Source: a virus | IMG/VR virus record: IMGVR_UViG_3300042296_000801 | Span: 1 to 38,566 of that record | DNA: 38,566 bases | Reading direction: 5' to 3' (one strand) | Part shown: positions 1,085 through 35,573 of the stretch, piece by piece | Layout of the letters: each line of letters begins with the position of its first letter | How positions within the stretch are numbered: the stretch's first letter is position 1 | Notes under the pieces: generated by a model | What the model was told of the DNA's origin: nothing | Database searches by the model: none | What the model saw: only the letters and a program-made list of their open reading frames with translations | Position numbers and translations under genes: made by a program

Positions 1085-1605
1085 GCCTTTGTAACATTTA
1101 AAGACACGGAAGCTCGGTAGCGTAGTGAGCGGTTTAGCGAACGGGCGGACGGCTGTAGTGTCTTAAATGTTTACCTCATCAAGGACCAGAACTGACTGCA
1201 TTTGGCAGGCATTTCTGGGACTGAATGAGTTATGCGTAAGCCTAGCGCTTACACTACATTACAAGCAAAGAGATTACCTGTAGTGTAATGAAGCGGTTTA
1301 GCGTAATGAAACGAAAGGTGTTCTCGGCGCGTAGTAATCTCACCGCCCGCAGACAATCGAGCCTTTAGCGAAGAGTTGTCGAGGATAGAGAATGCGGTGG
1401 ACTATGCGTTAGCTTTGATTGTGAACGGAACCGGTAGTAGCAGAGAACGCAGGACGGTTTAGTCCGAAGTCTATGCGGATACGGGTGTAGTGAACAAAAA
1501 ATCTTGAGGCGTTTAATTGCGAACGACTTTAGTGAGCAAATTAATAAGCCGAATCCATAGGATTATTCCCTGTGCCGAAGGCCTTACGCGCTATGAGCCT
1601 TCAAG
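1085..1605 (+). ncRNA. Candidate large structured non-coding RNA
   Basis: No convincing protein gene occupies this stretch, which is more GC-rich than its surroundings and dense in inverted repeats. Helices seen include: 1091-1107 with 1158-1174 (17 nt, small bulges); CCAGAA 1186-1191 with TTCTGG 1213-1218, enclosing CTGC/GCAG; GTAAGC 1236-1241 with GCTTAC 1247-1252; the 10-bp perfect 1249-1258 with 1279-1288 (alternative to the previous one); CACCGC 1341-1346 with GCGGTG 1394-1399, enclosing GACAA/TTGTC; GGAC/GTCC at 1452-1465; 1513-1518 with 1538-1544; and AATCC/GGATT at 1552-1564. Several hairpins have a GGTTTA or TTTA loop. Two contain tandem G-A/A-G mismatches between GTGAGC and GCGAAC (1125-1142 and 1519-1537), which make sense only for RNA read from the plus strand. 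Size and ornateness recall phage giant RNAs such as GOLLD and ROOL, but I cannot assign a family. Ends and promoter are not resolved. Confidence 0.55.
1339..1347 (+). repeat. CTCACCGCC dispersed motif, copy 1
   Basis: This copy is non-coding and lies inside the candidate structured RNA. Its CACCGC core is complementary to GCGGTG at 1394-1399, so here it may form a helix closing a hairpin domain. Confidence 0.75.
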
Positions 1606-1608
1606 CAT

Positions 1609-1637
1609 AAAAAAAGGTATACTATAAGTATACCTTT
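1609..1637 (-). terminator. Rho-independent terminator of the 1650-1916 gene
   Basis: A perfect 10-bp stem (AAAGGTATAC 1613-1622, GTATACCTTT 1628-1637) has a 5-nt loop. On the minus strand it is followed by seven T (1609-1615 read as A on the plus strand). It lies directly after the leftward gene at 1650-1916. It may also mark the far end of the rightward structured RNA, but the plus-strand T run there is only three bases. Confidence 0.8.
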
Positions 1638-1649
1638 GTAAGCTACATG

Positions 1650-1916
1650 TTATTTAATTTCCTGAATTCTAAATTTTAAATAATTAGGAACATAGTCTTT
1701 AGCAAGGTCTAATAATTCTTCACGGGTGTTACCTTTAGCGACGACTTTATTGTGAACAACTAATTCGTAGACTTTTTCTTCGATAATCGCGTAGTCACCA
1801 CTCTCACCTTCATTTTCTTGCAAGCCAATTAAACCATATTCTTTTAACACTTCTCTACCTTCGTCCATAGTGAACACTCTAGCCACGACTACACTTCCGA
1901 TTATTACTTTGTACAT
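1650..1916 (-). CDS. Small hypothetical phage protein (88 aa)
   Basis: This is a short leftward gene with an excellent ribosome binding site (AAAAGGAGGT, about 6-7 nt before ATG 1916), followed by its own terminator at 1609-1637. The 88-residue product is beta-strand rich at its N-terminus (MYKVIIGSVVVARVF), acidic in the middle, and has a repeated-looking pattern: 'VVVARVFTMDEGREVL' near residues 9-24 and 'KVVAKGNTREELLDLA' near residues 57-72 align in spacing. This suggests two copies of a small beta-alpha unit. I do not recognise the family. Its position among small leftward genes with individual signals suggests an early, possibly host-interacting protein. That is inference only. Confidence 0.75.
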   Translation of the reverse strand: MYKVIIGSVVVARVFTMDEGREVLKEYGLIGLQENEGESGDYAIIEEKVYELVVHNKVVAKGNTREELLDLAKDYVPNYLKFRIQEIK

Positions 1917-2313: not shown

Positions 2314-2352
2314 AAAAAAAGGGCTAAGCGTTCCGTTGCGCTTAACCCTTTT
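2314..2352 (-). terminator. Terminator after the 2356-2667 gene
   Basis: Stem AAAGGGCTAAGCG (2318-2330) pairs with CGCTTAACCCTTT (2339-2351) with one C-A mismatch and an 8-nt loop. On the minus strand it runs into seven T, just after the leftward gene ends. The plus strand also continues TTTTGTTTTATTT, so it may work both ways. Confidence 0.8.
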
Positions 2353-2355
2353 GTT

Positions 2356-2667: not shown

Positions 2668-2856
2668 TTTCTTATACCTCCAAGGTATGTATAGGTCACG
2701 GATTAACCTATGAGTAAATTTGAGTTTACTCACTAAACAACAAAACCATAATTCACAAACTAGGGGCTAGGGGTCTTAATTGGGTCCCACACCTGTCCTA
2801 AAGGGCCATACATAGGATTGACCTCAACTCATCACTTTTTGATTAAACTAGGAACT

Positions 2857-3033: not shown

Positions 3034-3113
3034 ATGTACCTCCTGCACGAAGTTTAAGCCAATAAACTAACCAAGTCAATTGTTAAATGTGTGAAACTGC
3101 TTTCAAGTTTTAG

Positions 3114-3137
3114 TTGACAATGGCGGTGAGGTATGAT
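3114..3137 (+). promoter_or_regulatory. Weak candidate promoter overlapping a CTCACCGCC site
   Basis: TTGACA at 3114-3119 and TATGAT at 3132-3137 look like promoter hexamers, but the spacer is only 12 nt, well short of the usual 17. The spacer is occupied by GGCGGTGAG (the dispersed motif in reverse). It could be a poor promoter for the tRNA-like RNA or just a chance match. Confidence 0.25.
3122..3130 (-). repeat. CTCACCGCC dispersed motif, reversed copy
   Basis: The plus strand reads GGCGGTGAG. It is non-coding, lies between candidate promoter hexamers, and sits 11 nt before the segment that pairs with the tRNA-like loop. It points opposite to all copies in the rightward virion block, so a rightward RNA through here would carry the motif's complement. 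Confidence 0.75.
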
Positions 3138-3140
3138 TAA

Positions 3141-3232: not shown

Positions 3233-3311
3233 GGGGTAGTCGGGTAAGTTAACCTATAACCTTAACTGGACGTAGGTTAAAACGTGGGTTCAACTCCCAC
3301 CTACTCCACCA
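3233..3311 (+). tRNA. tRNA-like element with encoded CCA, non-canonical arms
   Basis: The acceptor strand GGGGTAG (3233-3239) pairs with CTACTCC (3301-3307, one G-T), followed by A and an encoded CCA (3309-3311). The T arm is textbook: GTGGG, loop TTCAACT, CCCAC (3284-3300). The body is 76 nt, as for a tRNA. The rest is odd. The D stem GGGT/ACCT (3242-3245/3252-3255) has only a 6-nt loop lacking the usual GG. The anticodon stem TAACCT/AGGTTA (3257-3262/3274-3279) encloses 11 nt instead of 7, so no anticodon can be assigned with confidence. The 11-nt loop is exactly complementary to 3143-3153. It may be a degenerate tRNA, a tRNA mimic or part of a tmRNA-like RNA. Confidence 0.45.
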
Positions 3312-3675: not shown

Positions 3676-4140
3676 ATGGCAAAGAAGAAAGCAGAAAGCC
3701 GCGGTATACACGTTACGCTTAAGACGGACGATGTCGACAATGTTAAGATTAAATTCATTGGAGCAATGTTTACACCAGAAGAGTTTACGTCAATTTTCAT
3801 GGGAGTGCTAGAAGCGTATTCTATTTCTCTGATTGAAAAAAACGGTAAAGTCCCTGTGCATGACCATTGGAATGGTGTGTTCGGTAAATTCCTAAAAAGA
3901 ATTCTTCCAACTAAACAAGTATTCGAAGATTCCGAAGCTCACAAGAATGCTAAAGAAGCCATTGATGCAGCTTTAGGCAAAGAAGACACTCTGCTCACCG
4001 CCCGTAATAACGAAACTAATCGAATTGCCGCTGTGGTGTTAGCAAAAGAAATTCTTTTAGAAGCCGGCATAGAAGAAAAATCAGTCGACGTGTTGATTAA
4101 CAAAAAGATTGGTTTAATTACTCCAAGTAAACCAAACTAA
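3676..4140 (+). CDS. Hypothetical protein before TerL, possible small terminase
   Basis: The start at ATG 3676 is supported by AAAGGAGG about 8 nt upstream. The 154-residue product begins with a lysine-rich, probably beta segment (MAKKKAESRGIHVTLKTDDVDNVKIKFIGAMF) followed by helices (TPEEFTSIFMGVLEAYSISLIEK; ETNRIAAVVLAKEILLEAGI). It lies 3 nt from the large terminase gene. That position, together with a basic start and helical remainder, fits a small terminase subunit, but I see no helix-turn-helix I would stake a name on. The codons for L-T-A at 3994-4002 are CTC ACC GCC, one of the dispersed motifs, whereas the rest of the gene mostly uses A/T-ending codons. Confidence 0.65.
   Translation: MAKKKAESRGIHVTLKTDDVDNVKIKFIGAMFTPEEFTSIFMGVLEAYSISLIEKNGKVPVHDHWNGVFGKFLKRILPTKQVFEDSEAHKNAKEAIDAALGKEDTLLTARNNETNRIAAVVLAKEILLEAGIEEKSVDVLINKKIGLITPSKPN
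3994..4002 (+). repeat. CTCACCGCC dispersed motif
   Basis: In frame as CTC-ACC-GCC (Leu-Thr-Ala) in the gene at 3676-4140. All three codons are uncommon in this block. Confidence 0.75.
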
Positions 4141-4143: not shown

Positions 4144-5844
4144 ATGGCAGATAACAAAAAACTATTAGACACCCTAGCTAAGTTTGAAGCCACTACTACA
4201 GTTTCTTTGACACAATCTGTCAAGGAGACTGTAAAAGAAGTGGTAGAACTAGAAAAATCTAGAGCGTTTACCAAAACTGCTAAAGGAATTTACACTTGTG
4301 AGATAGGTGATACCTGCCCACGGTGTAATTATAGCAAATTCGAAGAAGTAACTTCGTTTAGTGGTAAACAAGCTGAGTTTTTTGTGCACTGCCCTACTTG
4401 TAACTCGTACGTTTGTCGATATAAGCCTATGCCTCATCAAGAAATATTCCATATTGACCAACATATGAAGAAACTATATGCTGGTGGATTCGGTTCTGCT
4501 AAGACTTATACAGCAGGCATGGAGTTTATCGGTACCATCTTACAAATTCCTAACTCTTCAGCCCTAGTTGGTGCTAGCACTTGGGGGCAAGTTAGCGATA
4601 CCTGCTTGAAATTCATTATAGATAATGTTCCAGCTAAGCTAGTCATCAAATCAAATCAAGATAAAGTAAACTGGTACATAGATTTAATTAACGGCTCACG
4701 CATTTCAGCTAAAGCCTTAGACAAAGAAGGTAAGATTCGCTCAGCTAACTTAACCCTTATCTGGGTAGAGGAAGCTAGCGAAGTAGATTACTCTGTCGTT
4801 GCATACATTGCTGCTCGTTTGCGTAATAAGAATGCTTTTTACAAAGGCAAAGACAGATTAAAGATGTTGCTCTCTAGTAACCCTGACGTTGGTTGGTTAA
4901 ATACTAACTGGCTTATGGTTTCTGATAAAATATACTATCACGGTAACGTTCAAGACAGATACGAAGTACCACCTACTGCTAGAGAACAAGCTGTTTCTAC
5001 ACATATTGCAGCCACATCTGCAAACTACTACTTGCCCACTAACTACGAACGTGACTTAGCGGCCAATAAAGAAGAGTGGTGGATTAATCGTTACCTTAAA
5101 GGGTCTTTTAAATATACTGAAGGGTTAGTTTACCCTGATTTCAATAAATGGTTCTGCGACCCGTTTGTAATTCCAGAACATTGGCAACGAATTGCTGGGG
5201 TAGACTTCGGAAGACGTGACCCAACTGCGTATGTCTTAGGGGCTATAGACCCAGGTAAACAAGTTATTTACTTTTACAAGGAAGTTTACATTTCTTTGGA
5301 AGATAAAGACATTACTGAAGCAATTAAACGAATAAAAGATGCAGAAGCTGGAGTTCCTGACTATTTATGGGCATATCCTCGTCAAGGTGACCCAAGAGGA
5401 AGAAACAGAGACCAAGTTTCAGGAAAGTCATGGATAGATGCCTATAATGAACATGGTATAATGATTGTGCCAGCAGAAAACATGGAGCATGACTCATTGG
5501 CTCCAACTATTAGTAAGCTGTCATCATATGCTCGGTATGGAAAGGTAAAGTTCTTCAAGACTTTACATTATTTGTATAAAGAGATGCGTTCTTACAAATA
5601 TCCATCCAGAGGATTAGGGGACGAAAAGAACCAAGGCGAAAAGCCTATGGATTCTAACAACCACTTACCGGATGCGGTAAGATATGCTATGGCTCCGTTA
5701 CCTCCTTTCCCCAAGGACCCCTCAGAGTTTACGGAAATTTGGACACAAATTGCCAACAAAACTAAAACATACAATCCATTATCTACAGATGAAGAAAATG
5801 GAGAAAATGATTTTATAGTTGACAATTGGGATAAATTTAATTAA
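4144..5844 (+). CDS. terL: Terminase large subunit with N-terminal zinc ribbon
   Basis: This is the ATP-driven DNA packaging motor and headful/terminus nuclease. The ATPase domain shows Walker A GGFGSAKT (residues 114-121), Walker B LTLIWVEE (203-210) and a coupling motif LLSSNPD (242-248). The nuclease domain shows AGVDFG with Asp354, Asp416 in GDPRGR, and HLPDAVRYAM with Asp510, fitting the RNase H-like terminase nuclease. Length (566) is normal. An extra N-terminal region before the ATPase holds two CxxC pairs (C58/C61 and C83/C86), a likely zinc ribbon not needed in classical T7-like terminases. There is no clear Shine-Dalgarno; the start follows the previous stop by 3 nt, so translation is probably coupled. 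Confidence 0.95.
   Translation: MADNKKLLDTLAKFEATTTVSLTQSVKETVKEVVELEKSRAFTKTAKGIYTCEIGDTCPRCNYSKFEEVTSFSGKQAEFFVHCPTCNSYVCRYKPMPHQEIFHIDQHMKKLYAGGFGSAKTYTAGMEFIGTILQIPNSSALVGASTWGQVSDTCLKFIIDNVPAKLVIKSNQDKVNWYIDLINGSRISAKALDKEGKIRSANLTLIWVEEASEVDYSVVAYIAARLRNKNAFYKGKDRLKMLLSSNPDVGWLNTNWLMVSDKIYYHGNVQDRYEVPPTAREQAVSTHIAATSANYYLPTNYERDLAANKEEWWINRYLKGSFKYTEGLVYPDFNKWFCDPFVIPEHWQRIAGVDFGRRDPTAYVLGAIDPGKQVIYFYKEVYISLEDKDITEAIKRIKDAEAGVPDYLWAYPRQGDPRGRNRDQVSGKSWIDAYNEHGIMIVPAENMEHDSLAPTISKLSSYARYGKVKFFKTLHYLYKEMRSYKYPSRGLGDEKNQGEKPMDSNNHLPDAVRYAMAPLPPFPKDPSEFTEIWTQIANKTKTYNPLSTDEENGENDFIVDNWDKFN
4207..4223. repeat. Dyad TTGACA-N5-TGTCAA, copy 1
   Basis: TTGACACAATCTGTCAA is a perfect 6+6 dyad with centre CAATC. 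It lies near the start of the terminase gene, in frame as Leu-Thr-Gln-Ser-Val-Lys. Confidence 0.6.
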
Positions 5845-6126: not shown

Positions 6127-7995
6127 ATGGACACAAGTAAATACGAGAAGCAAATTGCTGATTCCCAACAAACTACAACTTCAGAAGAAATTCTAAAGGC
6201 TTATGGTATTACGGAATACACGGTTGAAGATTTAATTCGTGAATTCGAAGATGCGATTGCTTACAAAGTTGAACAAGCTCGTGTATTTAAAATTTTAGAT
6301 GCGGCAGACCATTCTGACATTTGGAAAATTTACAATAAAAAAATTCCAGCGTATTATCAAACTCCAACAAACAATCCAATCACTGTTATTAAAGAAGCAA
6401 CTAAAGCAAGCATTATGCCTACTGCTTATGCTGGCATGTTTAAACCAATGACTTTAGAAGGCAAAAAAATTGCAGACACAGCTAACCGTTATATGCAAAT
6501 GAAATGGCAAGCTGCTAGTATGGACTCTATTAATGCACAAGCTGGAGACTATGCGTTCTTGCACGGAACAGCAGGTGTTTTATTTGGATGGAACCAAAAT
6601 ATAATTGATGCTACTGATTACACTGGTTATTTTAATCAAAGTAAAAAATCACAGATTCAAGCTAAAGCACTTCACCCATCTAATTTATTTCCAGACCCAG
6701 GCGCTGCAAGTATTGATGAAGCTCAATTTTTATATATTGCAGAACGTAAAACAAAACAATTCTTAAAACAAATTGCTCGATTTAGTAATTCAATTGCTAA
6801 TATTGAATACTCTTCACAAAATATTGGACAACCTGACAGCAATTATATTTTAGACGAAGCTAAAAATGGAAGTAATAATGTTGTCACATTTATTACTGCT
6901 TATAAAAGATTAATGAGAATGAAGCCAGACCCAACTACTGGTGAAATGCGATTATATCCTTGCGTGGATATTATTTATATGGCAGGGCGTCACATCTTAG
7001 ATATTTCTAAAGACATTCAACCTTCAACTATTCCATTTGTTCCACTTTATGATGAAGAAATCCCAAATAATTTTTGGGGCATTTCTAAATGCTATAAAGT
7101 GTTAAGTTTAGTAATGAGCTTAAACGAAATTGATTCTATTCAAGCAACTTCAATTATTAAAAATCAAAACCCTGCACAGTTTATTAACGCAGCGTCAGGA
7201 TTAAACGTAGCAGAATATCAACGTAAAAAAGAAAATCCAGATAGAGCGTTTACTGTTAATGGTAACCCAACTCAAGTTGTATATACTGAAGCTCGTCCAG
7301 AAGTTTCTAGAGATTTGCTACAATTTAGAGAATATCTAATTCGTAGTATCCAAGAAGTTTCAGGAGTCGACCAAATATATTTAGGAAGTAGCTTTGGTTC
7401 AATTCAAACTACTGGTGGTGTTCAACAAGCTGTTAATCGTTCTACAATGCGAGACAGCGTTCGTATTAAAAACATAGATGTATTTATTCGCAAAGAAATA
7501 GAATTAATGTTACAATTCTATTTAGCAAATTTAAAAACTCCAGAAAATTTCTTTGCTAAACAAAATAACAGCCATGATGATATGGGTGTAAAAATGCGAT
7601 TTGACCCTATGGAATTAATTGGCAGAGAAGATATTGAAATCGTTGTAGAAAATGCTGCTCCTCGTACTACAGCTAGTTACGAAGAAGCTGCAATGAAATT
7701 AATGGAATTAGAAATGAAATACTCTCCTGCAGAAAAAGGATACCCAAGTATTATTACACCAGAAGAAGTAATTCAATGGTTAAATATACCTCAATCACAA
7801 CGTCAAGCTATTATCGACCGTATGGCTCTTCAATATCAAAACTTAAAACTTGAAGAGTATACAGCAGTTCTCACCGCCGTAGGCACATTGACTCAAGGTG
7901 GCATGCCTGTAGAACAAGCGGTGCAAGAAGTAGTTGCTCAAATCCAAGCGTCTACACTTGGGCAATTACCGGCAAAAAAGATGCCACAACAATGA
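6127..7995 (+). CDS. Portal (head-tail connector) protein
   Basis: At 622 residues, following TerL and preceding scaffold and capsid, this is the portal of a podovirus-type head: the dodecameric ring through which DNA enters and leaves. It has the usual portal texture: an N-terminal helical clip region, a long central alpha/beta region (SIQEVSGVDQIYLGSSFGSIQTTGGVQQAVNRST near residue 410, matching the 'sG(v/i)...G......sgvaiq' turn of portals), and a helical C-terminus rich in Gln/Ala. Ribosome binding site AGAGGAT lies upstream. A dispersed CTCACCGCC motif encodes Leu-Thr-Ala near the C-terminus. The identification rests on length, order and this pattern rather than on catalytic residues. 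Confidence 0.85.
   Translation: MDTSKYEKQIADSQQTTTSEEILKAYGITEYTVEDLIREFEDAIAYKVEQARVFKILDAADHSDIWKIYNKKIPAYYQTPTNNPITVIKEATKASIMPTAYAGMFKPMTLEGKKIADTANRYMQMKWQAASMDSINAQAGDYAFLHGTAGVLFGWNQNIIDATDYTGYFNQSKKSQIQAKALHPSNLFPDPGAASIDEAQFLYIAERKTKQFLKQIARFSNSIANIEYSSQNIGQPDSNYILDEAKNGSNNVVTFITAYKRLMRMKPDPTTGEMRLYPCVDIIYMAGRHILDISKDIQPSTIPFVPLYDEEIPNNFWGISKCYKVLSLVMSLNEIDSIQATSIIKNQNPAQFINAASGLNVAEYQRKKENPDRAFTVNGNPTQVVYTEARPEVSRDLLQFREYLIRSIQEVSGVDQIYLGSSFGSIQTTGGVQQAVNRSTMRDSVRIKNIDVFIRKEIELMLQFYLANLKTPENFFAKQNNSHDDMGVKMRFDPMELIGREDIEIVVENAAPRTTASYEEAAMKLMELEMKYSPAEKGYPSIITPEEVIQWLNIPQSQRQAIIDRMALQYQNLKLEEYTAVLTAVGTLTQGGMPVEQAVQEVVAQIQASTLGQLPAKKMPQQ
7870..7878 (+). repeat. CTCACCGCC dispersed motif
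   Basis: In frame as CTC-ACC-GCC (Leu-Thr-Ala) near the 3' end of the portal gene. Confidence 0.75.
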
Positions 7996-15000: not shown

Positions 15001-15968
15001 ACAGCTTGGTTCCTTGGAGAGACTATTTAATTGCAGCAACTAATAATGCTATTTATTTAATTACTAAAATAAACAATGGTTTTACAAATAAAGCTGTTAA
15101 TACCTTTACAGGGGTTTCAGAAGTTGATAGAAATACTTTAATGCCTATTTTAAATGGGTTACTATTTAAAAATGGTAGCAAGATATTTTCATTATCTCCA
15201 AATCCAAATTCATCAGTAGATTCTATATTGAGCATATCTGAGTTGTCCAAACCTGTAGGAGAATTATTAAACTTAGAACCTTTAGATACTATTGGATTTA
15301 CTACTGAAACATATTACGGTATATTTTTGACACTTTCTGACAAAACATTATTAATAAAATATGATTATGGGACTAGAGTGTTTACTTTAATGGAATACAC
15401 AATTAGAGTTAAACAAGTGTTTATTGATAATATTCAAAACATTATTATTACAGATATTAATGGTAAACAATACTACTTTAATAAAAAGTTCCCAGATGCT
15501 TTTGTGGATATTATCGGATACGGTGACGTTTTAAATGTAGAATATCCATTAATCGGGGAACTCACCGCCGTGACTCCTATTTCGTTTGAAATTGATAGCG
15601 GTGAAAAGTCAGATGACATGGGGTATGAAAAGAACTTTGTTGAAACTAGAATTACATTTGGTTTAAAGAGTTCTAAAGAAGTAATACCTGTTACATTAGA
15701 CGTATACACAGATGGACATAAACAAATAGCTCACAAAGCTGTAGAAACTGATTCTCCGTTTTGGAATGATAGTCTAGATGATTTAGCTGTTTTAAATACT
15801 GGATTTGACACAAATAACTCACAGATTATTAATACCTTAAAAGAATTACGTATTAGACACCATGGTTTTGGTAAAACTCTTAGACACGTTATTACAGGAA
15901 ACAGCGTTACTAAATTTAAAATTTATGTGGTATATTATAAATATAGAACATTACCAGGAGAAGAATAA
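12090..15968 (+). CDS. Very large tail nozzle protein (tail tubular B-like, 1292 aa)
   Basis: I start at ATG 12090 (MALKRRRNGNSGS); an upstream TTG at 12081 would overlap the adaptor gene. After a basic N-terminus comes IRRIDSPTDKSGVFTVKNFDVDDDRSLILRD, and the long body is beta-rich. A C-terminal half has propeller-like repeats (VPWRDYLIAATNNAIYLITK, LMPILNGLLFKNGSKIFSLS, ETYYGIFLTLSDKTLLIKYDYGTRVFTLME), as in nozzle proteins with a beta-propeller. T7 gp12 is about 800 residues, so this is much longer. The C-terminal region contains a CTCACCGCC motif (Leu-Thr-Ala). Codon use is strongly A/T-ending. It is the tube tip that gates DNA and anchors fibres. Confidence 0.75.
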   Translation: MALKRRRNGNSGSIDSARTSSYSAVRGIRRIDSPTDKSGVFTVKNFDVDDDRSLILRDPILLYKNKPAGVTGTFYKVVYSFDGNRLNDLYITSNGIYNSTGTLVPIKYKDVYGKENILVYNANLSSAYNYKINDTVTYSNFSTSTIINNIEVKLPDGYIGSRFVKHTIVDNQHVLEALIPTEINLNKTSEGEGIIFNPNFYNDVFQDVRDNYSSQTFDVLGILQYVLYDHVTKKVIATQLNNLNIETLLRSKANPRYTIAASVPEGTGIYLKAFVNIKKYPKTKIYCSWEETIDGVNYNTCPEFKTKFANYLINLKVRKDEVDVTSELKSINVTPFELFSDADNVLNRPDVLFVKSDNKTRRFVVYALPSYEIIEGKENKTYIQDLKTTPSTATNRSSDLGINTNDLRPYSFSSYNPISNSDLEERFKVFLDTGLTTLPLLSVAQNEAIRKTKNNLQEISVLQEDKTTQYTLEGNNWFIRAEIEYQAGYPGAPSPNIRFEYLRKSGTSTTLLDSSIETVTVEFPNIPHKIKNLYVTNWKKLPWAVFPWNIKTKTSGSEITNEPSKLNTGINGNSTLYGDFTEINPTLDVIKEDQYKIYGLSSKSIKKQDYINSSLSGFTLSNINEIDHNAFNANLEVDGFNISFNNSIYQSYEIVSSPVIATKIADTISGQYVSSLHTLSTIDNIFSNLAVFTKPNYALLNKNNLNVISVPKQEVNISKVYNTDVYNNVMQNSGLTLKSITTMIEQPYVTWLNLLSVSTDIESRNSRITDVNYGHYYSLLGREGSTSLTDEFITVDTVLKVKEVGNFAVSTQLTVERPNVKSFYDSCYTVKNKSEFVYEDAKKVFYFTSYPASSVNYHRSGNEYEYVVGTSVHSLLFKGSHIAYINRNQINNIKTVSFLETASLLSNEVVVDNVVIEKPSKALGLLNYKKALYAFGNSGFKNNILVSKTDSFEFPLTNVLDLDASQDNKVNSLVPWRDYLIAATNNAIYLITKINNGFTNKAVNTFTGVSEVDRNTLMPILNGLLFKNGSKIFSLSPNPNSSVDSILSISELSKPVGELLNLEPLDTIGFTTETYYGIFLTLSDKTLLIKYDYGTRVFTLMEYTIRVKQVFIDNIQNIIITDINGKQYYFNKKFPDAFVDIIGYGDVLNVEYPLIGELTAVTPISFEIDSGEKSDDMGYEKNFVETRITFGLKSSKEVIPVTLDVYTDGHKQIAHKAVETDSPFWNDSLDDLAVLNTGFDTNNSQIINTLKELRIRHHGFGKTLRHVITGNSVTKFKIYVVYYKYRTLPGEE
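15561..15569 (+). repeat. CTCACCGCC dispersed motif
   Basis: In frame as CTC-ACC-GCC (Leu-Thr-Ala) in the nozzle gene. It stands out in an otherwise A/T-ending codon context. Confidence 0.75.
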
Positions 15969-19071: not shown

Positions 19072-20409
19072 ATGCCAATAATTAATAGCGTAGTAGGTGG
19101 AGGTTTACCTTCTATTCAAACACAAGGTATCTTTACAGGGGCAACAGTTCCAATCACTGCAAAAGATAATAATATATCTTACGAAAACAATTATGAATAT
19201 AAATCCTTAACGCATAACATTACGATTACAGGTTTAACTGGCAGAGCAACCATAATCAATAACGGAACACGAAACGTTACCGTGAATTTTATCGTTACAA
19301 GTGCTACAAACTCGTTGAAGTTTTTTGACATTACTTGTGTCAAAGATAGTCAAAGTATTACTTATAGAGGACTTCATGCACATTATGGAACAACTTTAAC
19401 AGGGGTAGAAAACCTAACGTTTGCTTATTTGAACATTACCAAAGATGGAACTGAAGGAACTGTAGGCACAGCGACCACAGGAACAAACTATCGGTTTATC
19501 GTAAGCACGACTTTGCCCAATTTTTCAACCACCACAACTTTATATAATAATATATATGCGTATCAAGTCTTAAATGTTTTAATTGGAAGAGCAACATCGT
19601 TAAACGTTAGTGCTGTTTTGTCTAATTGCACTTTGTTTAACCAACCATTAACATTACCAACACCGACAAGTTCAACAATAATTGGAGCAAGTTTTTTAAG
19701 TAATACAAGTTCTTTCAATCAACCACTAATTATCCCTTCTAATATAACATCTATTGGGCAAAGTTTTTTAAGTAATGCAAGTTCTTTCAATCAGCCACTA
19801 ACTCTTCCCTCAAGCCTAACAGCCGTTGGGTCTGGTTTTTTATTTAGCTTAGCATCATTCAACCAACCACTAACTCTTCCCTCAAGCCTAACAACCATTG
19901 GGCAAAGTTTTCTTGGGCAGATGAAAAATTTTAATCAACCTGTAACGATTCCTTCGGGTATAACTTCTCTTCCAAATTTTTTTTTAGCAGATGGCGATTC
20001 TTTCAATCAGCCACTAATTATTCCTTCTTCAGTAACATCTATTGGAAGTAATTTTTTATCTGCTTCAAGAGTTTTTAACCAACCACTAACTATTCCTTCT
20101 TCAGTAACATCTATTGGAAATACTTTTTTAAACTCTGCAGGAAATTTTAACCAACCACTAACTATTCCTTCTACAGTAACATCTATTGGAACTTTTTTTT
20201 TAGGCAGTTGTATTTCCTTATCTACAATTACTTATAACGCTTCGGTATATCCTACGGACAATAACTCTTTGTCGCAATTACCCAATTCAAAAACAAGTGC
20301 AAGTGGAACTGGTATTATTGTGTATGGAACAGGTAGAGCAGGTCTTATTGCTGCATTGCCCGATAGAGCAGTATCACCGTTTAGAAAACTAATTAACGGA
20401 GGAAGTTAA
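19072..20409 (+). CDS. Tail tip protein with tandem leucine-rich repeats
   Basis: The N-terminal 180 residues are beta-rich (IINSVVGGGLPSIQTQGIFTGATVPI...). Residues 189-382 are eight repeats of about 24 residues with consensus SFNQPLTIPSSVTSIGxxFLxxa, matching the surface leucine-rich repeats of the BspA type and the FNQPL unit seen in mycoplasma-type surface proteins. The C-terminus (NNSLSQLPNSKTSASGTGIIVYGTGRAGLIAALPDRAV...) is a cap. GAGGGG lies before the ATG. Following two fibre genes, it is most likely a receptor-binding protein. Its tandem DNA repeats could change copy number by recombination. Confidence 0.75.
   Translation: MPIINSVVGGGLPSIQTQGIFTGATVPITAKDNNISYENNYEYKSLTHNITITGLTGRATIINNGTRNVTVNFIVTSATNSLKFFDITCVKDSQSITYRGLHAHYGTTLTGVENLTFAYLNITKDGTEGTVGTATTGTNYRFIVSTTLPNFSTTTTLYNNIYAYQVLNVLIGRATSLNVSAVLSNCTLFNQPLTLPTPTSSTIIGASFLSNTSSFNQPLIIPSNITSIGQSFLSNASSFNQPLTLPSSLTAVGSGFLFSLASFNQPLTLPSSLTTIGQSFLGQMKNFNQPVTIPSGITSLPNFFLADGDSFNQPLIIPSSVTSIGSNFLSASRVFNQPLTIPSSVTSIGNTFLNSAGNFNQPLTIPSTVTSIGTFFLGSCISLSTITYNASVYPTDNNSLSQLPNSKTSASGTGIIVYGTGRAGLIAALPDRAVSPFRKLINGGS
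19636..20217 (+). repeat. Tandem 72-bp coding repeats (eight units)
   Basis: The Phe codon of the FNQP box recurs at 19636, 19714, 19786, 19858, 19930, 20002, 20074 and 20146: one 78-nt step, then exact 72-nt steps. Units starting at 20002, 20074 and 20146 are nearly identical around the segment 'cttcagtaacatctattgga', showing recent duplication. Confidence 0.9.
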
Positions 20410-22234: not shown

Positions 22235-23179
22235 ATGAAAAGAAACTTATTTGGGCTATTTATAAGTATATTTATGGCAATAATCTTTGTTGCTGTAAAT
22301 ATATTTTCTCAAATTGTAGCTGTAGGGTTTAGATTAGATGTCTTTACTTCAGCAGATTTTTGGTTCCTTACTGTTTCTAGTACGTTTACTCATATTATGG
22401 CATGGTATATAGCTAGCCGTAATACAGTAGATGCAGAAAAGATTTCTAATACAAAATATGTCAAAAAAGCAGAAGTAGTAGAATTTATTGTATTAAATAA
22501 GCTAGAAGAAGATTTTGATGACTTCTTAATTGAATTAAACAGAGAACGTCGTATACAAGCATGGATAAACAAGATTAATCGTAAACTATTCTATTTAGAT
22601 TGGTTTGCAACTGCAAAAGCATTAATTACTCACCGCCGGTTGGTTCAATTGTTTATTAAAGAACGCCCAGCTACGTCTCGTTATGAGTTTATTAAAAAGC
22701 ACACCTTAAGATTGTATCCAAGACTTAAAGAAAAGTATTTATATTTAAAGTCTCAAGAATATACTTCAGAAAATATGGATAACCTTAGAGTTTTCTTTTT
22801 TCAACCTTATACAAGAATACATTTAACTAATGTTAATCCAGATGTAATTAGATTAGATGATAGATTTGAATATAGAAGTTTATTTGATTTAAACAAAGGA
22901 TTTGGCAAATTACTATACGGACTAATTCTTAGTATTTTTATGAATACATTACTAGTTAGTTTTGTAGAATTTAATATAGGATTATTATTAAACATTATTA
23001 CTTCTTTGGCAACTTTAGGAATGAACACTTACTTTGGTATTACACACGGTAAAGCCGTTGTAGAAAACGTTTATGTGTATAACTTAACGTTAGCTCAACA
23101 AGTTTTTGATAAGTACTTAGCTATGAAAGCTAAGGTTCTTCCTTTAAGTCTTGACAAATCTTTGACAAATAATGTATAA
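22235..23179 (+). CDS. Multi-pass membrane protein with large soluble middle (314 aa)
   Basis: Hydrophobic segments lie at about residues 5-31 (LFGLFISIFMAIIFVAVNIFSQIVAVG), 42-60 (DFWFLTVSSTFTHIMAWYI) and two near 226-268 (LLYGLILSIFMNTLLVSFVEF, GLLLNIITSLATLGMNTYFGI). Between them is a basic soluble region of about 150 residues, rich in Arg/Lys/Tyr (ERRIQAWINKINRKLFYLDWF..., HTLRLYPRLKEKYLYLKSQEYTS). A CTCACCGCC motif is read here in a different frame (ACT CAC CGC CGG). The GTGAGG site precedes the ATG. Unknown function; with the two genes before it, it forms a membrane-protein cluster between the tail and ejection genes. Confidence 0.6.
   Translation: MKRNLFGLFISIFMAIIFVAVNIFSQIVAVGFRLDVFTSADFWFLTVSSTFTHIMAWYIASRNTVDAEKISNTKYVKKAEVVEFIVLNKLEEDFDDFLIELNRERRIQAWINKINRKLFYLDWFATAKALITHRRLVQLFIKERPATSRYEFIKKHTLRLYPRLKEKYLYLKSQEYTSENMDNLRVFFFQPYTRIHLTNVNPDVIRLDDRFEYRSLFDLNKGFGKLLYGLILSIFMNTLLVSFVEFNIGLLLNIITSLATLGMNTYFGITHGKAVVENVYVYNLTLAQQVFDKYLAMKAKVLPLSLDKSLTNNV
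22629..22637 (+). repeat. CTCACCGCC dispersed motif, shifted frame
   Basis: Here the codons are aCT-CAC-CGC-Cgg (Thr-His-Arg-Arg), a different frame from the Leu-Thr-Ala copies, so the conservation is not due to a peptide. Confidence 0.75.
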
Positions 23180-25597: not shown

Positions 25598-28500
25598 ATG
25601 GCTATTAATAAATTTAATGAAATAATTCCACGTCTTCAAGAAGGACCTCAAGGTGTAACATCTACACCCGGGTATTATATTGATGACATGTTTGACCCTA
25701 TATTTAATAAAGCTGCTAGAGAGTATTTAAGTAATAAATACGGACCTAGCATTTTAAATATTCCAGCAGGGTATATTGAAGGCATAACTAATGCTTGGGG
25801 AAATAAACAAGGTAAAGGTATTCTTGGACCTGCAATGGGTGTGCTTGGATATTTTGGTCGTTCATTAGATAAAGCAGACGACGCTTTGTTAGGAACGTTA
25901 ATAGAAGCTACAGACCCTACTGGATTTAATAATCCTATAGAACAAATATTTTTAGAAGATAGGCCTTATGAAGGTAAAGAGTTAATTAAAAATTTACTCA
26001 ATCAATCTCGTAAAGACCCTAATAAACAAATAACAGATGAAGATTTAAAAGGACTTTTACCTACTCTTGGTGGATTAGCTATTGATTTAGCTACTGACCC
26101 AGGTATTCTTGGTAGTACTTTAGCAAGAATTGGAACTAAATCTACTAAACCTATTATTAAAAACTTAGGTCAAGTTGGACAATTAATGTCTGACTATGAT
26201 GATGCAGCGGCTATGTTAGCTTGGAATGCAGTAGCCCCAGGTTCTACTTTTGCTGCTAAAAAGTTTTTAGGTAAAGCCGGACAAATATTAAATTGGGATA
26301 AATCTAAAGACGTTGTAAACGTAACTACTAAAGATTCTACAGCTAAAACTGTTGCAGATACTTTTAAACCTAAAGGCCCTGATATCCCAGCGCCTATTAT
26401 TCGTAAAGAACTATTACCTCAAGGCACTCCTGTTGTTAAAAATGCTAAAACAGTTCAAGAAGGACTTAAAAAAGCACCTAAGGTTGCAGCAGCACCTGTT
26501 GCTCCTAAAGATAATTTGACACAATTTGTAGAAAATGGGGTTGAAAAAGTTAAACAATCTTATAAACCTAAAGATGTTGTTAACCCTGCTGTTGAAGAAG
26601 TAGCAGATGCTGTTGCTAAACTAGAAGCTAAACCTAAGGTTACAGATAGCGTAGTTGAACCTGTTGCTAAAAATGTTCCTGAACTTACAACATACGAAGA
26701 TGCTGTTAAAGAAGTTCAAGATTTAGGTGCGCCTACAATGGAAAGCCAAGTTAAAAACATTGGTAAATATACCGAAGTTGAAAACATTGGTGGGCGTAAC
26801 GTTGTTATGGGAATAAAAGGTGTTGAAGGAGGTCAAGGAATGCCTCTCACCGCTCCTTCCGGTTCTTTTGTAAATCAAAATGTTATTACGTCAGATAGAA
26901 TAGAAGATGCTTTAAAACAAATAGATGACGACGAAATTCGTCCTATACTTGAAGAAATTAAAGAAGCAGGTGGATGGGATAGATACGTAGAACAAAACTG
27001 GGATGGTTCTGTGTTAGATTATCCAGAAATAGAAGCTCTTCAAAATAAAGTTTTAAATATTTTAGAAGAGTTTGAAGGAAATAGTTTTACATATCTTAAA
27101 TCTGGAGGAACTGAAAGATTTATTGTTAGACCTAGTCAATATTATCCTTTAAAACAATATGCTCCTGTTAAAAGATATGTAGATTCTTGGGTTGCTGTTT
27201 TAAAAAATAACATAGAAACTTCTTTAGGACGTAAAGTCGGAGTTAAAGAGTTTCGTACAAAAATATTTGAAGCTTTTGGTTGGGCAGAAAAAGATATAGA
27301 TTCTTTAATATCTAATTATAAAAAAGCTTGGGAATACCAACGCAAAAACAAATTAATACTAAAAGAATTTAATAGAATACCTAAAACAAACAAAGTTGCA
27401 AGAACTCAATATATAAAAAATTTATCTATTATAGACCCTGAAATGGCTAAAGCTGTTGATTTTATATCTAAATATAATGAAGCTTATTTTTTTGTTAAAG
27501 GATTAGACGATTTTATTAAAGTTTCTTTTTTAGAAGAAGTTCCTTCAATTAAAAGAGTTAGCAAAGCAGGTAAACGTTTTGAAATTTTAAATACTTATGA
27601 AGCTTACAAAGCTTCTACTGAGTCTTTTGTTAAAGCAATGAATTCTAAGTATGCTAAAAAAATCTTATCTAAAGGTAAATCTTTAGGAGATGATTTTTCT
27701 AGAAGTATTGTTTTTGCTTTAGATGAATTATCAGACAATTTAAGTAATTTAAATAAAAAAATTGTAAGTGTGACAGGAAGTGGATTTTCTTCTGATGCTT
27801 TTGAAACTGTTTCTAAAGAAATAGGAGATATTTTACCTCCAAACACTTTAGTAAAGTCTTTTTTAGAAAGTATTCCTTTTGCAGCTACAAGAGCTATAAG
27901 AAGTGGATTAGTGGAAATAACTCCAGAAATATTAGCAGTTGCTCAAAAAGAAGAAGCTGTTATTCGTAAAATTTTAGAAGATTTTCCTGAACTTGAGGTT
28001 ATTGACCGTTTAACCGGTAAAAAAATTCAAACTTTAATTAAAAGCGAATTAGATGCTACTAAAGTTGCTGCTGGTCAAGTCAGTCCTTTACAATTTGTTA
28101 AACGTAATTATAATCCAGCAACTGTTCCTAGTAAGGTTACTGAAGAAAAATTGACACAAGCTGTCAACGAAGTGTTGACAACTCCAACTAAAGAGTTACC
28201 TCCAATTGTTCCTAACGCTACTGTACCAGACCCTATTAAAGCTGCACAAAAAACTTTAGAAGCGGGACCAGTAGAAGAAGCGTTAAACACTGCTATTGAA
28301 ACAGCAATGAAACAACAATATCCTACTACTCCAGTAAGCTTTGCTAAAGAAGTAGATGTTTATAGAACAACTACTAAAAAAGAAACTTTATTTAGCAGAC
28401 TATCTAGAGCTATTACTACTTCTAGTAATGTAGTTTCTAAAAATTTTTCAGCTAGCTTAGATAACCCTAAAGTTAGAGAAATTATAGCTAAAATAGCTAG

Positions 28501-31054: not shown

Positions 31055-31063
31055 CTCACCGCC
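31055..31063 (+). repeat. CTCACCGCC dispersed motif, intergenic
   Basis: Four bases after the last virion stop codon. Its CGCC end pairs with GGCG at 31068-31071 (loop CAAA), a small hairpin ahead of the terminator. Confidence 0.75.
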
Positions 31064-31127: not shown

Positions 31128-31128
31128 A

Positions 31129-32169
31129 TTACTTTTTAGATTTTTTAATATTCCATTTAACATAAGTAGATGGATTAATGTATTTTTGATACAAATCAGG
31201 GTTTTCTTCTTTAAATTTAGCAGAATCAAACGCTGGTCGTGTAACTTTTGAGTAAGATATAATAGATTTAGATGTTTCTGTAGGTCTAGCGCCTTCGATA
31301 TATTTAGTTACGATGTTATCCTTCAAAATGTTTAAACGTAGTTCAGAAGCTCTAATAACACCATCTAATGAGTTATAGTCTTCTAACATCTTATTTAGTT
31401 CTTCGCTAGATACAGTAGGAGTGTTTTCGATGTCTGGTAAAATATTAGTAATTTCATCAGAATCTATAGATGGAGTAGGAGTAGGAGGAATATTCATTAA
31501 CAAATGATTATTGTAAAAATCTTTAGTTTCAGGCAATAGTCTAATATGAATAAAATCTAAATCTTTAGGAATTTTATAAGTTTTTAATTCCCAATTAGAT
31601 TCAAACATAGCACAAACATAAAATACTTCTATACCTGTAATTGCCATATATGTTTGAACTTGAACATAATAATAAGATGGAATACCTTCGTAATCAGGAC
31701 CGTTCCATGCTGCTTCACCGTATTCGGTAATTAACTTTATTTCAATACCAATAGTATCTTTTAAAGCGTTGTAAGTTTTATCTTTTAAAGTACCAATACC
31801 ATCTAAGTTACCCATTAACCAAGGATAGTTAATGTTTTTAAACATATGGTCTGGCTTAATAAGGTTGTATTCTGGGAATAAAGGTTTAACTTTATTGTCT
31901 AAAATCCATCCTTCTAATTCTCTACCTTTTTTAACACTAGGCAATCTACCAAGCATGTCTTGTGCATGTTCGTTGTCTTCGGTTTTAGCTCGGTAGATTT
32001 TAAGCGGTGAGGAGTACTTGTTAAGTCCTAATATAGCTGCTGCTTCAGAACCACCTATAGTTTTTTTACGGTCTTTTTTCCAGTCAGATTCGTCTTTAGG
32101 AACTGGAATTATTTCAATTTCAGAACCTTTATCTATAATACCATAACTGTTATATAAAGTTATATCCAT
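31129..32169 (-). CDS. YqaJ-type exonuclease/recombinase (346 aa)
   Basis: A PD-(D/E)xK nuclease of the YqaJ viral recombinase (lambda exonuclease-like) family, which resects double-stranded ends for recombination and repair. Motifs seen: TIGGSEAAAILGLNKYSSPLKIY (residues 37-59), GRELEGWI with Glu86, GNLDGI with Asp123, GIEIK with Glu143 and Lys145, and YYVQVQTYMAITG with Gln residues (168-180). I prefer ATG 32169 because GGAGG (32176-32180) then has a 6-nt spacing; ATG 32175 would be directly adjacent to it. The start overlaps the preceding stop (TAATG). The C-terminal 100 residues (EELNKMLEDYNSLDGVIRASE...) are helical. Last gene of the operon. Confidence 0.9.
   Translation of the reverse strand: MDITLYNSYGIIDKGSEIEIIPVPKDESDWKKDRKKTIGGSEAAAILGLNKYSSPLKIYRAKTEDNEHAQDMLGRLPSVKKGRELEGWILDNKVKPLFPEYNLIKPDHMFKNINYPWLMGNLDGIGTLKDKTYNALKDTIGIEIKLITEYGEAAWNGPDYEGIPSYYYVQVQTYMAITGIEVFYVCAMFESNWELKTYKIPKDLDFIHIRLLPETKDFYNNHLLMNIPPTPTPSIDSDEITNILPDIENTPTVSSEELNKMLEDYNSLDGVIRASELRLNILKDNIVTKYIEGARPTETSKSIISYSKVTRPAFDSAKFKEENPDLYQKYINPSTYVKWNIKKSKK
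32003..32011 (-). repeat. CTCACCGCT dispersed motif, leftward
   Basis: Read on the minus strand as tcC-TCA-CCG-Ctt (Ser-Ser-Pro-Leu) in the YqaJ gene, a third reading frame. It is oriented with transcription. Confidence 0.7.
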
Positions 32170-32378
32170 TAACATCCTCCACCCTCTCCTACTTCATCTT
32201 CAAATTCAATTTCATTAATTTCAGTATATTTTTCTACCAACTCTGCCATTTTATTAGAATATTCTTCAAAAGTAGCATCTTCATCTAATATAACGTTACC
32301 TTCTTCATCTGGAACCCAATAAATATTTATTTTAATGGTTTTAGGAAGTAGTTTATTCTTCGGTTTTTTTTGTTGCAT
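32169..32378 (-). CDS. Small acidic protein (69 aa)
   Basis: I start at ATG 32378 (MQQKKPKNKLLPKT), inside the end of the zinc-finger gene; TTG 32384 is possible. The product has a basic start and then a very acidic body (DEEGNVILDEDATFEEYSNKMAELVEKYTEINEIEFEDEVGEGGGC). It could be a DNA mimic or a partner of a replication protein. It lies between the zinc-finger gene and the exonuclease gene, overlapping both, so co-translation is likely. Unknown family. The tail codons also contain the GGAGG site for the next gene. Confidence 0.6.
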   Translation of the reverse strand: MQQKKPKNKLLPKTIKINIYWVPDEEGNVILDEDATFEEYSNKMAELVEKYTEINEIEFEDEVGEGGGC

Positions 32379-32529: not shown

Positions 32530-33026
32530 TTTGTTCTCCCATAATTAATATAGTATAGCAAATGCTTTAAACTATCTCTAACGTGGTCGTTAGTCATTTT
32601 ACCGTTTAAGTAATAACGATTATTAAGATAGGTCATATTTGGCACTTTTCGTAAAAGAATGTCATCTTTAAACCTTACTTTAGCCTGACTTGGGGTTTGG
32701 AATATATAAGGTATTTTGTCTTTTTCCAATTCCCAAGTCAAAGCTCCAATAAGCATAATGGTTTCCGGCATGGTTCCCATTAAGAATCCATCCGTACGAA
32801 TCATGAAACTCTCAATAATGACTTGATTAGCACCATGTGCTTTTTTCATTATTTCTGCCCAGTATTCATGACGCGATTTATAATCTTTAGCAGACACTGT
32901 GTCTAACCTAAGAGTGTCCCACATTAATTCATTCTTTTCATCATCGTATACAATGTAAGATACGCCTGTTTTACCTTTACCGGAGTTAAAGTTACCAGAA
33001 GGGTCTATAACGCATAATGTAATCAT
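32526..33026 (-). CDS. RuvC-like Holliday junction resolvase (166 aa)
   Basis: RNase H-fold resolvase cutting four-way DNA junctions so that replicated, recombined genomes can be packaged. Visible acidic residues: Asp8 in CVIDPSG (first beta strand), Glu72 in QVIIES, and the C-terminal helix NDHVRDSLKHLLYY with Asp147 and Asp151, matching the RuvC 'D..DA..~a' helix. Length 166 is typical. The start overlaps the previous stop by ATGA, and the gene is followed by another ATGA overlap. TPSQAKVRFK (residues 111-120) is the region that in RuvC proteins binds DNA. Confidence 0.85.
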   Translation of the reverse strand: MITLCVIDPSGNFNSGKGKTGVSYIVYDDEKNELMWDTLRLDTVSAKDYKSRHEYWAEIMKKAHGANQVIIESFMIRTDGFLMGTMPETIMLIGALTWELEKDKIPYIFQTPSQAKVRFKDDILLRKVPNMTYLNNRYYLNGKMTNDHVRDSLKHLLYYINYGRTK

Positions 33027-33478
33027 TTAAATGTACCATAATAAGCATAGTTTTCATCGCTAAGATTAATAGCTATTCCAACTGCTTGTCCTTTTTGAAC
33101 ATGTTCAGCAAACAACAGACTCTTTGAAAAGATTCTAAGCTTACTAATGTATCTAGTCTCATTAACGACTATCGACGCTTTAGATGTAATTTTAGTACCT
33201 CCTATGTAGAATTCAACAGTATCCCTAGAGTTATACTCTTCAATCTTGCTGGATAAAGGAATTACTAGTACTCTATCAGTATAAGGGTTTGAGTCTTGTA
33301 ATACAAGTCCCAAGTGTCTACCTGATAATTCGGAACCAACATTCTCACCAAAATCAATCTCATAAATTTCGCTTTTATAGCAATTATATTTAGGTATTTT
33401 ATTAGTTGACCAATAGCTACGTTCTCTTTGAATCCAAGCTTCACGTTTGTAAGCTTTGTCGCTTCGATAATCACTCAT
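33023..33478 (-). CDS. MazF/PemK-like protein without antitoxin (151 aa)
   Basis: The fold signature of the MazF/PemK endoribonuclease family is visible: YEIDFGENVGSELSGRHLGLVLQD (residues 39-62; MazF 'v...lg...GsEq.g.RPalVv'), LVIPLSS (71-77; 'v.v.PlTs') and SIVVNETRYISKLRI (102-116; 's.v....~r.i...Rl'). Arg54 and Ser76/Ser77 sit where MazF has its catalytic Arg and Thr/Ser. An N-terminal basic helical extension of about 30 residues precedes it. It overlaps the polymerase stop by 8 nt and the resolvase start by 4 nt, and no antitoxin gene is adjacent. It may cleave host or phage RNA, or have become a non-toxic RNA-binding protein. Confidence 0.75.
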   Translation of the reverse strand: MSDYRSDKAYKREAWIQRERSYWSTNKIPKYNCYKSEIYEIDFGENVGSELSGRHLGLVLQDSNPYTDRVLVIPLSSKIEEYNSRDTVEFYIGGTKITSKASIVVNETRYISKLRIFSKSLLFAEHVQKGQAVGIAINLSDENYAYYGTFK

Positions 33479-35573
33479 GTTTATCTCCCCAACTTGTCTT
33501 ACTAATAGAAGCTTCAGTTGTTAAAGGAACTATACCTTTATATGTGTTTTCCATAATTTGTTGAATTTCTGGTATGATATTTTGCTCATCTTTATGAATT
33601 ACAAAACAAAGTTCATCGTGAATACACGCTTGCAATTTACTCTTTTTATTTTGCAAGTACTCATCAATTTTACAAATTACTTCTTTTAAAATGTCTGCGG
33701 CACTGCCTTGAATAACATAGTTATTTAATTTGTAAGCGTCTCTAGGCTCTTCAATAAAGTATCTACGGCCTTTAAGATTTTCAACATAACCGTTATACCC
33801 ATATTCTTTTTTAATCCATAAACGATAAGCGTTAATGTCTTTAAAAGCTTGACCAAATCCATAGTATAATTTTTTAACTACGTCTGGGTCTGTATCTGCT
33901 AAAGTTTCTTGTACTTTCTTTAAACTAGCTCCGTAAATAATAGCAAAGTTAACTTGCTTACCTACTTTACGTAGTTTCTTAAATACATCTGATTTAGGGT
34001 CAATGTCTGGGAAAGCCATAAGTGTAGTTTGAGTATGTACGTCAACAGGTGTCCATTCTTTAGTAAGGTCTTCTTCGTAATAATATTTACTATCTTTTTG
34101 AACACATCTAAATGGTATGTAAGCTCTAAGCATATTAACATCGCCTTGACCTTGGGTACAGCGGTGAGTATACTCTGCTTGTAATCGCAACTCAATTTGT
34201 GAATAATCAACATAGGCTAATACTGGGTATTCGTTACTTTCTATTACAAACATCTTACGAGGATGAAATAACTCAAAGTTACCTAGTTTTGAATAGACAG
34301 CTTCTTTAGGAAACTGTTGAAAGTTGCTAGTAAAACGACCTGAGACTGCACCGGCACTGTTAAATTGGGTATAAACCTTGTTATCTTTAGAGTTATTAAG
34401 TCTATATAGCATACTATTAATATACGTAGATATAAACTTTTCTAAGGTTCTTAGATACATAACGTTTTCTAAATACTGTTTAACTTCATTAGGCATAGTC
34501 TTATCAGTAATCATTTTAATGTGTAAAGACTTTTTATCAGTATTTTCTAAGTCATAGGCATATTTAGCTTTAATAGCTTTTTTAATTTCAGCATGTTGAT
34601 TAGGTGTTAAAGAAACTCCTAACAACTTATCATTAATAGCTTTTATACTATTAATTTCAAATATAAGTGCTTGCTTTGAACGAATAAGATACTTTTTATC
34701 AACAACATATCCTGTACGTTCCATGCGTACTAATGGCATAATAAGATTCATTTCCATACGTAGCACTTTTAACATACCTTTGTCTGCAATTTTAGGAAGT
34801 AATAGTCTAAATAGCTCTAAAACAATAATTACGTCCATTCCCGCATAGCTAAGTAACAACTTACGGTCTAAATCTGCATAAGATATTTTAGAATTAATAA
34901 TCCAGTTAACCCAAATTGTTTGTACATCTAAAGAGTATTCTTCTAAAGAACCTGTTACATCTTTTAGAGTTTCATCTATTTGAGCTCTAGATACCCCATA
35001 GGGTTTAAGTAAATCTCTTAATTGTTTAAGCTTTTCAGTCCAGAGTCTGCTAAGTTCAGCGTCGACTTGTTTGCCTAGATTAGCGTAAGCTGAACCTAAT
35101 AATCTAGCTGCTAGTGGTTTTAAACCCATAGGGTAACCACCTTCACGTTCGGTTTTAGATTCTAAAGCTAATCTAGCTACAGTCATAGAGTCACAAGCAT
35201 TAGTAGTATGAAATACATAGCCTTTATTCCACAACATGTTAATGTCAAACTTAATGTTATGGGCGGTCACAAACGTACTTCTTAGACACATTTCGTCAAA
35301 TAATTTAAATACAGACTTTGTAAGTTCATCAGAAACTGTTAAGTCTGCGATGTACACTACATTGTCGTATCCAAATTGTAATAATATAGGCAAGTCATTA
35401 CCTAAGTCAATAGTAGAACCATCTGACTTAGTCATATCAATTTTGGTATTACTTTCGGTATCAAAAGCTAAAATAGATATGTTTGTAGGAAGACTATTTA
35501 AAATTTCATTAGCCTTAGCTAAACTATCAATAATTATAAATTGATAGTTCGCTAAGATTTCATGATGACTCAT
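33471..35573 (-). CDS. polA: DNA polymerase, family A, with 3'-5' exonuclease
   Basis: The replicative polymerase. The exonuclease domain shows FDTE (Asp38, Glu40), NIKFD (Asp110) and YAGMD (Asp246), so proofreading is probably active. The polymerase domain shows motif A DYSQIELRL (Asp455 region), motif B RKVGKQVNFAIIYG (residues 534-547) and motif C HDE (651-653). Length of 700 matches T7-like polymerases. A reversed-strand dispersed motif lies at 34160-34168 in the region coding THRC. The gene starts 2 nt after the primase-helicase stop, with AGGT upstream. It works with the primase/helicase and SSB-like protein of the same operon. Confidence 0.95.
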   Translation of the reverse strand: MSHHEILANYQFIIIDSLAKANEILNSLPTNISILAFDTESNTKIDMTKSDGSTIDLGNDLPILLQFGYDNVVYIADLTVSDELTKSVFKLFDEMCLRSTFVTAHNIKFDINMLWNKGYVFHTTNACDSMTVARLALESKTEREGGYPMGLKPLAARLLGSAYANLGKQVDAELSRLWTEKLKQLRDLLKPYGVSRAQIDETLKDVTGSLEEYSLDVQTIWVNWIINSKISYADLDRKLLLSYAGMDVIIVLELFRLLLPKIADKGMLKVLRMEMNLIMPLVRMERTGYVVDKKYLIRSKQALIFEINSIKAINDKLLGVSLTPNQHAEIKKAIKAKYAYDLENTDKKSLHIKMITDKTMPNEVKQYLENVMYLRTLEKFISTYINSMLYRLNNSKDNKVYTQFNSAGAVSGRFTSNFQQFPKEAVYSKLGNFELFHPRKMFVIESNEYPVLAYVDYSQIELRLQAEYTHRCTQGQGDVNMLRAYIPFRCVQKDSKYYYEEDLTKEWTPVDVHTQTTLMAFPDIDPKSDVFKKLRKVGKQVNFAIIYGASLKKVQETLADTDPDVVKKLYYGFGQAFKDINAYRLWIKKEYGYNGYVENLKGRRYFIEEPRDAYKLNNYVIQGSAADILKEVICKIDEYLQNKKSKLQACIHDELCFVIHKDEQNIIPEIQQIMENTYKGIVPLTTEASISKTSWGDKHE
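34160..34168 (-). repeat. CTCACCGCT dispersed motif, leftward
   Basis: Minus strand reads aCT-CAC-CGC-Tgt (Thr-His-Arg-Cys) within the polymerase gene, oriented with transcription. Confidence 0.7.

Follow-up and report, generated by a model that had tools for sequence, protein, structure and literature searches.

A polar nine-base-pair DNA word with lineage-specific spellings in a clade of podovirus-like phages

The phage and its repeated word

The stretch of DNA analysed here (the window) covers 38.6 kb of an uncultured podovirus-like phage that encodes a large terminase (4144..5844, plus strand), an SU10-type portal and a head protein. The window is present near-identically, with one difference, in the 52,767-bp IMG/VR contig G001, and a second record of the same phage is G006. 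The nearest named phages are the Paenibacillus larvae phages API480 and SV21, with a terminase identity of 37%. The phage has recombination genes of its own, namely a YqaJ/RecE-like recombination exonuclease (31129..32175, minus strand), a Sak4-like AAA_24 protein and an SSB. A PemK/MazF-like protein (33023-33478, minus strand) is encoded inside the replication operon, and an antitoxin/mRNA-endonuclease pair is also found in API480 and SV21. Within a BspA-type leucine-rich-repeat gene (19072-20409) there are 72-bp tandem repeats at 19674-20203. At 3233-3308 (plus strand) Rfam gives a tRNA match of 46.6 bits with a CCA end and an enlarged anticodon arm, for which ARAGORN makes no call. Outside the window, at 46501-52640 of G001, an AAA plus M41-peptidase protein (FtsH-like), an AAA_5 (MoxR-like) ATPase and a CobT/VWA-domain protein are encoded side by side, a set that is unusual for a phage, and another VWA gene lies at 75-647 of that contig.

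Ten copies of the word CTCACCGCY are dispersed over the window, at exactly the places and on the strands where the first-pass annotation had put them. On the plus strand the spelling CTCACCGCC occurs at 1339..1347 in a structured non-coding region, at 3994..4002 in the gene immediately before the large terminase (a probable small terminase, judged by position only), at 7870..7878 in the portal gene, at 15561..15569 in a 1295-aa gene, at 22629..22637 in a 314-aa gene and at 31055..31063 between converging operons; the plus-strand copy at 26846..26854, in an 1817-aa gene, reads CTCACCGCT. Three copies lie on the minus strand: an intergenic, reversed CTCACCGCC at 3122..3130, 1.0 kb upstream of the large-terminase start, and two of the form CTCACCGCT, at 32003..32011 in the YqaJ/RecE-like exonuclease gene and at 34160..34168 in the DNA polymerase A gene. 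The region around the first copy (1080-1650) comprises about 570 nt of non-coding and strongly structured sequence (fold z-score -3.8) in which TAGCGAA/GTAGTGAGCG-like elements recur, and has no match in Rfam.

The 8-base core CTCACCGC had been described as rare by chance, and this was borne out: ten copies are seen against 0.13 expected from dinucleotide shuffles (the largest count in 100 shuffles was 1), and of all 8-mers in the window it ranks first in over-representation (trinucleotide model, p about 1e-16). Among all 9-mers CTCACCGCC is the most over-represented. The near-complete 52.8-kb genome holds 13 copies of the core, every one in the form CTCACCGCY, and G006 has 8 in 36 kb. Sequences one letter away from CTCACCGC are not enriched (3 seen, 4.8 expected) and the signal is thus exact. 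Flanks are unrelated between copies of this spelling, as had been noted. The coding copies in the window encode Leu-Thr-Ala (four), Thr-His-Arg (two) or Ser-Pro-Leu (one), and three copies are non-coding. Shuffling synonymous codons while keeping the proteins and the genome's codon usage yielded 0.14 coding copies where 10 are seen, the most in any shuffle being 3-4, which excludes codon drift. The near relative G002 (9 kb, 77% nucleotide identity) has the word unaltered at two homologous places in coding DNA, corresponding to 3994..4002 and 7870..7878, and one new copy. Of 9-mers that are similarly rich in GC, only about 9% are the same in both phages. A codon-keeping shuffle and a look at relatives had been proposed at the outset as ways to expose chance or codon drift, and together the 0.14 copies and the matching places in G002 refute both.

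Lineage spellings and homologous sites

In relatives with a terminase identity of 56-66%, the long genomes examined contain no CTCACCGC and another word tops each genome. The word CTCGCCACC occurs 8 times in G004, 11 times in G007, 10 times in G008 and 8 times in a phage contig binned in a Clostridia metagenome-assembled genome (MAG), where 0.01-0.03 copies are expected; CTCACCACY is found 14 times in G036 and 10 times in G032. These spellings combine to CTCRCCRCY, which reads RGYGGYGAG on the opposite strand. Enrichment of the lineage word was detected in all seven near-complete or long members of the clade (p 1e-16 to 1e-27), and 12 long distant podoviruses of the same head-protein superfamily showed no comparable word (best p 1e-6 to 1e-14). 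When conserved flanks of greater length were sought across dialects, they amounted chiefly to a T after the word in two of them. A possible fourth spelling, ATCGCCGCC, is present in G031 with 4 copies in 7 kb against 0.01 expected; one of these is reversed and lies 232 nt upstream of the called terminase start. In G007 a second word, GGAACACC, is also strongly enriched besides CTCGCCACC (15 copies, 0.7 expected). Several of the relatives are fragments.

The spellings follow the terminase tree, of which we used the ingroup branching alone: CTCACCACY and CTCACCGCY each correspond to one supported branch, and CTCGCCACC to the remaining basal lines and one line beside the CTCACCACY branch. Homologous sites mapped through protein alignments showed the change of spelling directly. 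At the same codons of the AAA_24 gene G001 has CTCACCGCC, G004, G007, G008 and the MAG phage have CTCGCCACC, and G036 has CTCACCACC. In the AAA-M41 gene the same codons carry CTCACCGCT, CTCGCCACC or CTCACCACC depending on the lineage, with a loss in G007, and in the giant late gene four phages have CTCGCCACC, G036 has CTCACCACC and G001 has lost the site. The AAA_24 and AAA-M41 sites, which are the most widely kept across lineages, are both antisense to their genes; their antisense codons are Gly-Gly-Glu (Ser-Gly-Glu in one) and the switch takes place in the Gly third letters. The codons that the word requires there are uncommon in these genomes: roughly 13% of the codons for Glu are GAG, and roughly 14% of those for Gly are GGC.

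Since homologous sites are kept while their spelling switches, codon drift as well as a peptide signal can be excluded; the latter had already been rejected by the first-pass annotation from the use of three reading frames, and the switches, which include codons of the opposite strand, agree with it. The clade carries an exact asymmetric 9-bp site about every 4-5 kb whose lineage spellings have changed in concert. The simplest cause of such switches would be a reader acting at the level of DNA whose preference has changed, and a concerted change of spelling at many places is what marks a DNA site as being read by a protein, as Chi is by bacterial repair enzymes.

Polarity and the terminase start

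When genomes are laid out from the terminase start with the late genes rightward, the C-rich word points rightward nearly everywhere, including several places in early genes that are transcribed in the opposite direction. Leftward copies are limited to the final section ahead of the terminase and to the terminase start, apart from three more exceptions in the early block of G001. By a hand count in which homologous sites were counted once, 36 of 49 independent sites point rightward (p 0.0014) and about 39 of the 49 run along transcription (binomial p 4e-5), so that the two biases are inseparable by counts. The orientation with transcription that the first-pass annotation reported is correct inside the window and does not extend to the rest of the genome, where two copies (5393-5401 and 47370-47378 of G001) are antisense to genes, nor to the relatives, in which many are.

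Over most of the genome the site keeps one direction, and this is reversed where the terminase gene starts. Of 19 contigs, 14 have a left-pointing copy in the interval from -73 to +66 nt around the terminase start codon, and five short contigs have no copy but this one. We noticed this site after the data had been seen, and it recurs in independent lineages. These copies occupy several independent places. One is within the N-terminus of the terminase, another is where the upstream gene ends (G028 having CTCGCCACC there and the G036 group CTCACCACC), and in G003 the place is a different one. Within the window, the left-pointing copy closest to the terminase start is the reversed one at 3122..3130, probably their counterpart. 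A pac or cos site would be a unique site near the terminase at which the cuts for packaging begin; the reversed copy has the position in those 14 contigs, but the word as such is not unique.

A possible Chi-like function and its alternatives

Taken together these properties suggest that RGYGGYGAG, the G-rich strand, could be a sequence-specific polar DNA signal of Chi-like character with a role in end-processing, recombination or packaging, a reading to which we give nearly even chances. Like Chi, the word is a short, exact, asymmetric, dispersed and over-represented sequence. Its density, the phage's own recombination genes, the lack of a detectable Gam and its Chi-like letters make a Chi-like function the best single reading. 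Thirteen copies in 52.8 kb amount to 0.25 per kb, and Chi density in phages is 0.2 per kb, about that of the host (PMC3784561). Chi is enriched in phages that have recombinases and no inhibitor, and in lambdoid phages of this kind it is concentrated toward cos, just before the terminase (PMC3784561). The letters GGTGGTG, GGTGGCG and GGCGGTG resemble the candidate Chi variants GGTGGTGG, GCTGGTGG and GCTGGCGG (PMC8022716). The likeness to the Chi of RecBCD (GCTGGTGG in E. coli with the candidate variants GCTGGCGG and GGTGGTGG, GCTGGCGC in P. syringae) extends from a short exact asymmetric G-rich polar word to a density of about 0.2 per kb, occurrence in coding and non-coding DNA, exchange of T and C between dialects, enrichment in phages without an inhibitor, and a place near the terminase. 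The phage word differs in that it has 9 bp ending in GAG, was found in one phage clade and is not enriched in the candidate host. Polarity alone does not single out Chi, because the C-rich strand also follows transcription.

Chi is read by RecBCD on the strand that has its 3' end at the entry point, and the G-rich arrow points toward the end where the enzyme entered. A helicase-nuclease of the AddAB/RecBCD type, from the host or from the phage's recombination set, might likewise read the G-rich strand on entry from a DNA end and change at the site from degrading to recombining. If the genome ends, or a packaging cut, were close to the terminase start, the enzyme would meet a correctly oriented site from either side, the bulk copies serving one end and the reversed copies the other. 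Incoming or concatemeric DNA would then be protected by sites toward both ends, and these would also feed recombination-dependent replication and packaging. Divergence of the reader protein would have made the preferred spelling drift, with the sites following.

Several observations limit this comparison. The likely host phylum is Bacillota, given that relatives infect Paenibacillus and one phage was binned in Clostridia, and the AddAB/RexAB Chi sites of this phylum (AGCGG, GCGCGTG, GAAGCGG) share with the phage word a G-rich sequence and polar reading but have other letters. Bacillota Chi sites known so far are of 5-7 nt (PMC5959072). The Clostridia MAG that holds the 54.6-kb CTCGCCACC phage is the sole candidate host, although the phage may belong to a different one. 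The MAG encodes an AddA-like protein, and its 393 kb contain 1 copy of the word where 0.6 are expected. Among a further 290 genomes of Clostridia, none was found with a phage-like word density beyond GC effects, and we rejected a host Chi in these genomes and in the bin, the apparent excess in those inspected being GC composition. No convincing spacer or prophage matches were obtained in the bin's family. Enrichment is known to miss some real Chi sites (PMC8022716). Gam is present in the Paenibacillus relatives API480 and SV21, both without the word, and was not detectable in the word-bearing phages tested; this contrast is weak because it rests on two Paenibacillus phages and the distant podoviruses lack Gam and the word alike, so that Gam is not a general switch for the word. 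Given that it is not enriched in the sole candidate host, the word cannot be filed as Chi.

A serious alternative, possible in our view if not favoured, is that the reader is phage-encoded and the word is the phage's own signal for replication, packaging or translocation: a guide resembling the FtsK-orienting polar sequences (KOPS), a priming or primosome-loading site, or a set of packaging sites in which the reversed terminase copy marks pac or cos. That the spellings follow the phage tree, that the sole candidate host lacks enrichment and that the site nearest the terminase start is most often kept, and stands alone in five contigs, all agree with such a signal, as do core genes that include a primase-helicase, an SNF2 helicase and the terminase. 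We know of no described packaging or priming signal that is a dispersed 9-mer every few kb; moreover the ten or so other copies point opposite to the terminase copy, and no candidate for the reader protein was identified. AAA_24 or SNF2 genes in unrelated phages, which could separate a host from a phage reader, were sought and none was found outside the clade. KOPS, too, are short words with a polarity that reverses at a landmark; they converge on a resolution site and are read by an FtsK-like translocase. The phage word turns near the terminase, but there are only about ten copies of it, and profile scans of the phage proteins revealed no such translocase. DNA uptake sequences of Neisseriaceae and Pasteurellaceae are 9-10 bp exact words whose lineage dialects are kept genome-wide, but they are bacterial, number hundreds to thousands of copies and imply a role in uptake that is implausible for a phage. 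Of the roles offered by the first-pass annotation, a Chi- or KOPS-like polar DNA motif has gained from the exactness, density, polarity and dialects of the word, and a link to packaging from the reversed copy at the terminase start. The third, an mRNA site, has fared badly.

If a phage RNA or protein bound the word in late mRNA, alignment with transcription would be explained, and indeed about 39 of the 49 independent sites and every coding copy in the window are sense. A regulatory site in mRNA is expected on the transcribed strand, however, and the two most widely kept sites, those in AAA_24 and AAA-M41, are antisense and carry the lineage spelling, which argues strongly against an mRNA signal; the terminase-start copies are antisense to the terminase mRNA and several others are intergenic, making this explanation highly improbable. 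We consider it equally improbable that the word is a modification- or restriction-related site, such as a phage methylation target or a site with the orientation bias of type III restriction sites. The asymmetric word and its strand bias would suit such a role, but restriction selects against sites and not for them, a continuous asymmetric modification site of 9 bp would be unusual, and scanning the genes with profile libraries revealed no methyltransferase. Explanations by chance, by codon usage or by a small mobile repeat are refuted. Nothing was found in their favour, although the word does sit in comfortable codons (Leu-Thr-Ala, Leu-Ala-Thr), and against them stand the protein- and codon-keeping shuffles with at most 4 copies, flanks unrelated save for the T preference, and the spelling switches at homologous sites.

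Returning to the Chi-like signal, we may speculate, with considerable doubt, that the clade has a Chi-like system of its own, in which a phage-encoded end-processing or packaging complex would read the polar 9-bp word for self-recognition against host DNA, reader and word having co-evolved, with a concerted change of every copy, into at least three dialects. A literature search with the exact words returned nothing relevant. Related phages with matching gene sets spell one polar DNA signal in different ways, and this natural series would allow the reader protein and its specificity to be searched for by co-variation. Should the word be Chi, it would reveal the Chi of a bacterial lineage and show in phages how such signals change genome-wide; should the reader be phage-encoded, the phage would be marking its own DNA in a manner that is new.

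Some distant podoviruses have frequent words of other kinds. In L134, L067 and G018 the top word is TGAAGCGG, with 7 copies in 4.3 kb of L134 and 9 against 0.8 expected in G018. The Staphylococcus aureus Chi, GAAGCGG, forms part of this word. In another distant podovirus, G020, CTTCAGGA occurs 16 times, 15 of them on one strand, and could reflect codon use or another polar word.
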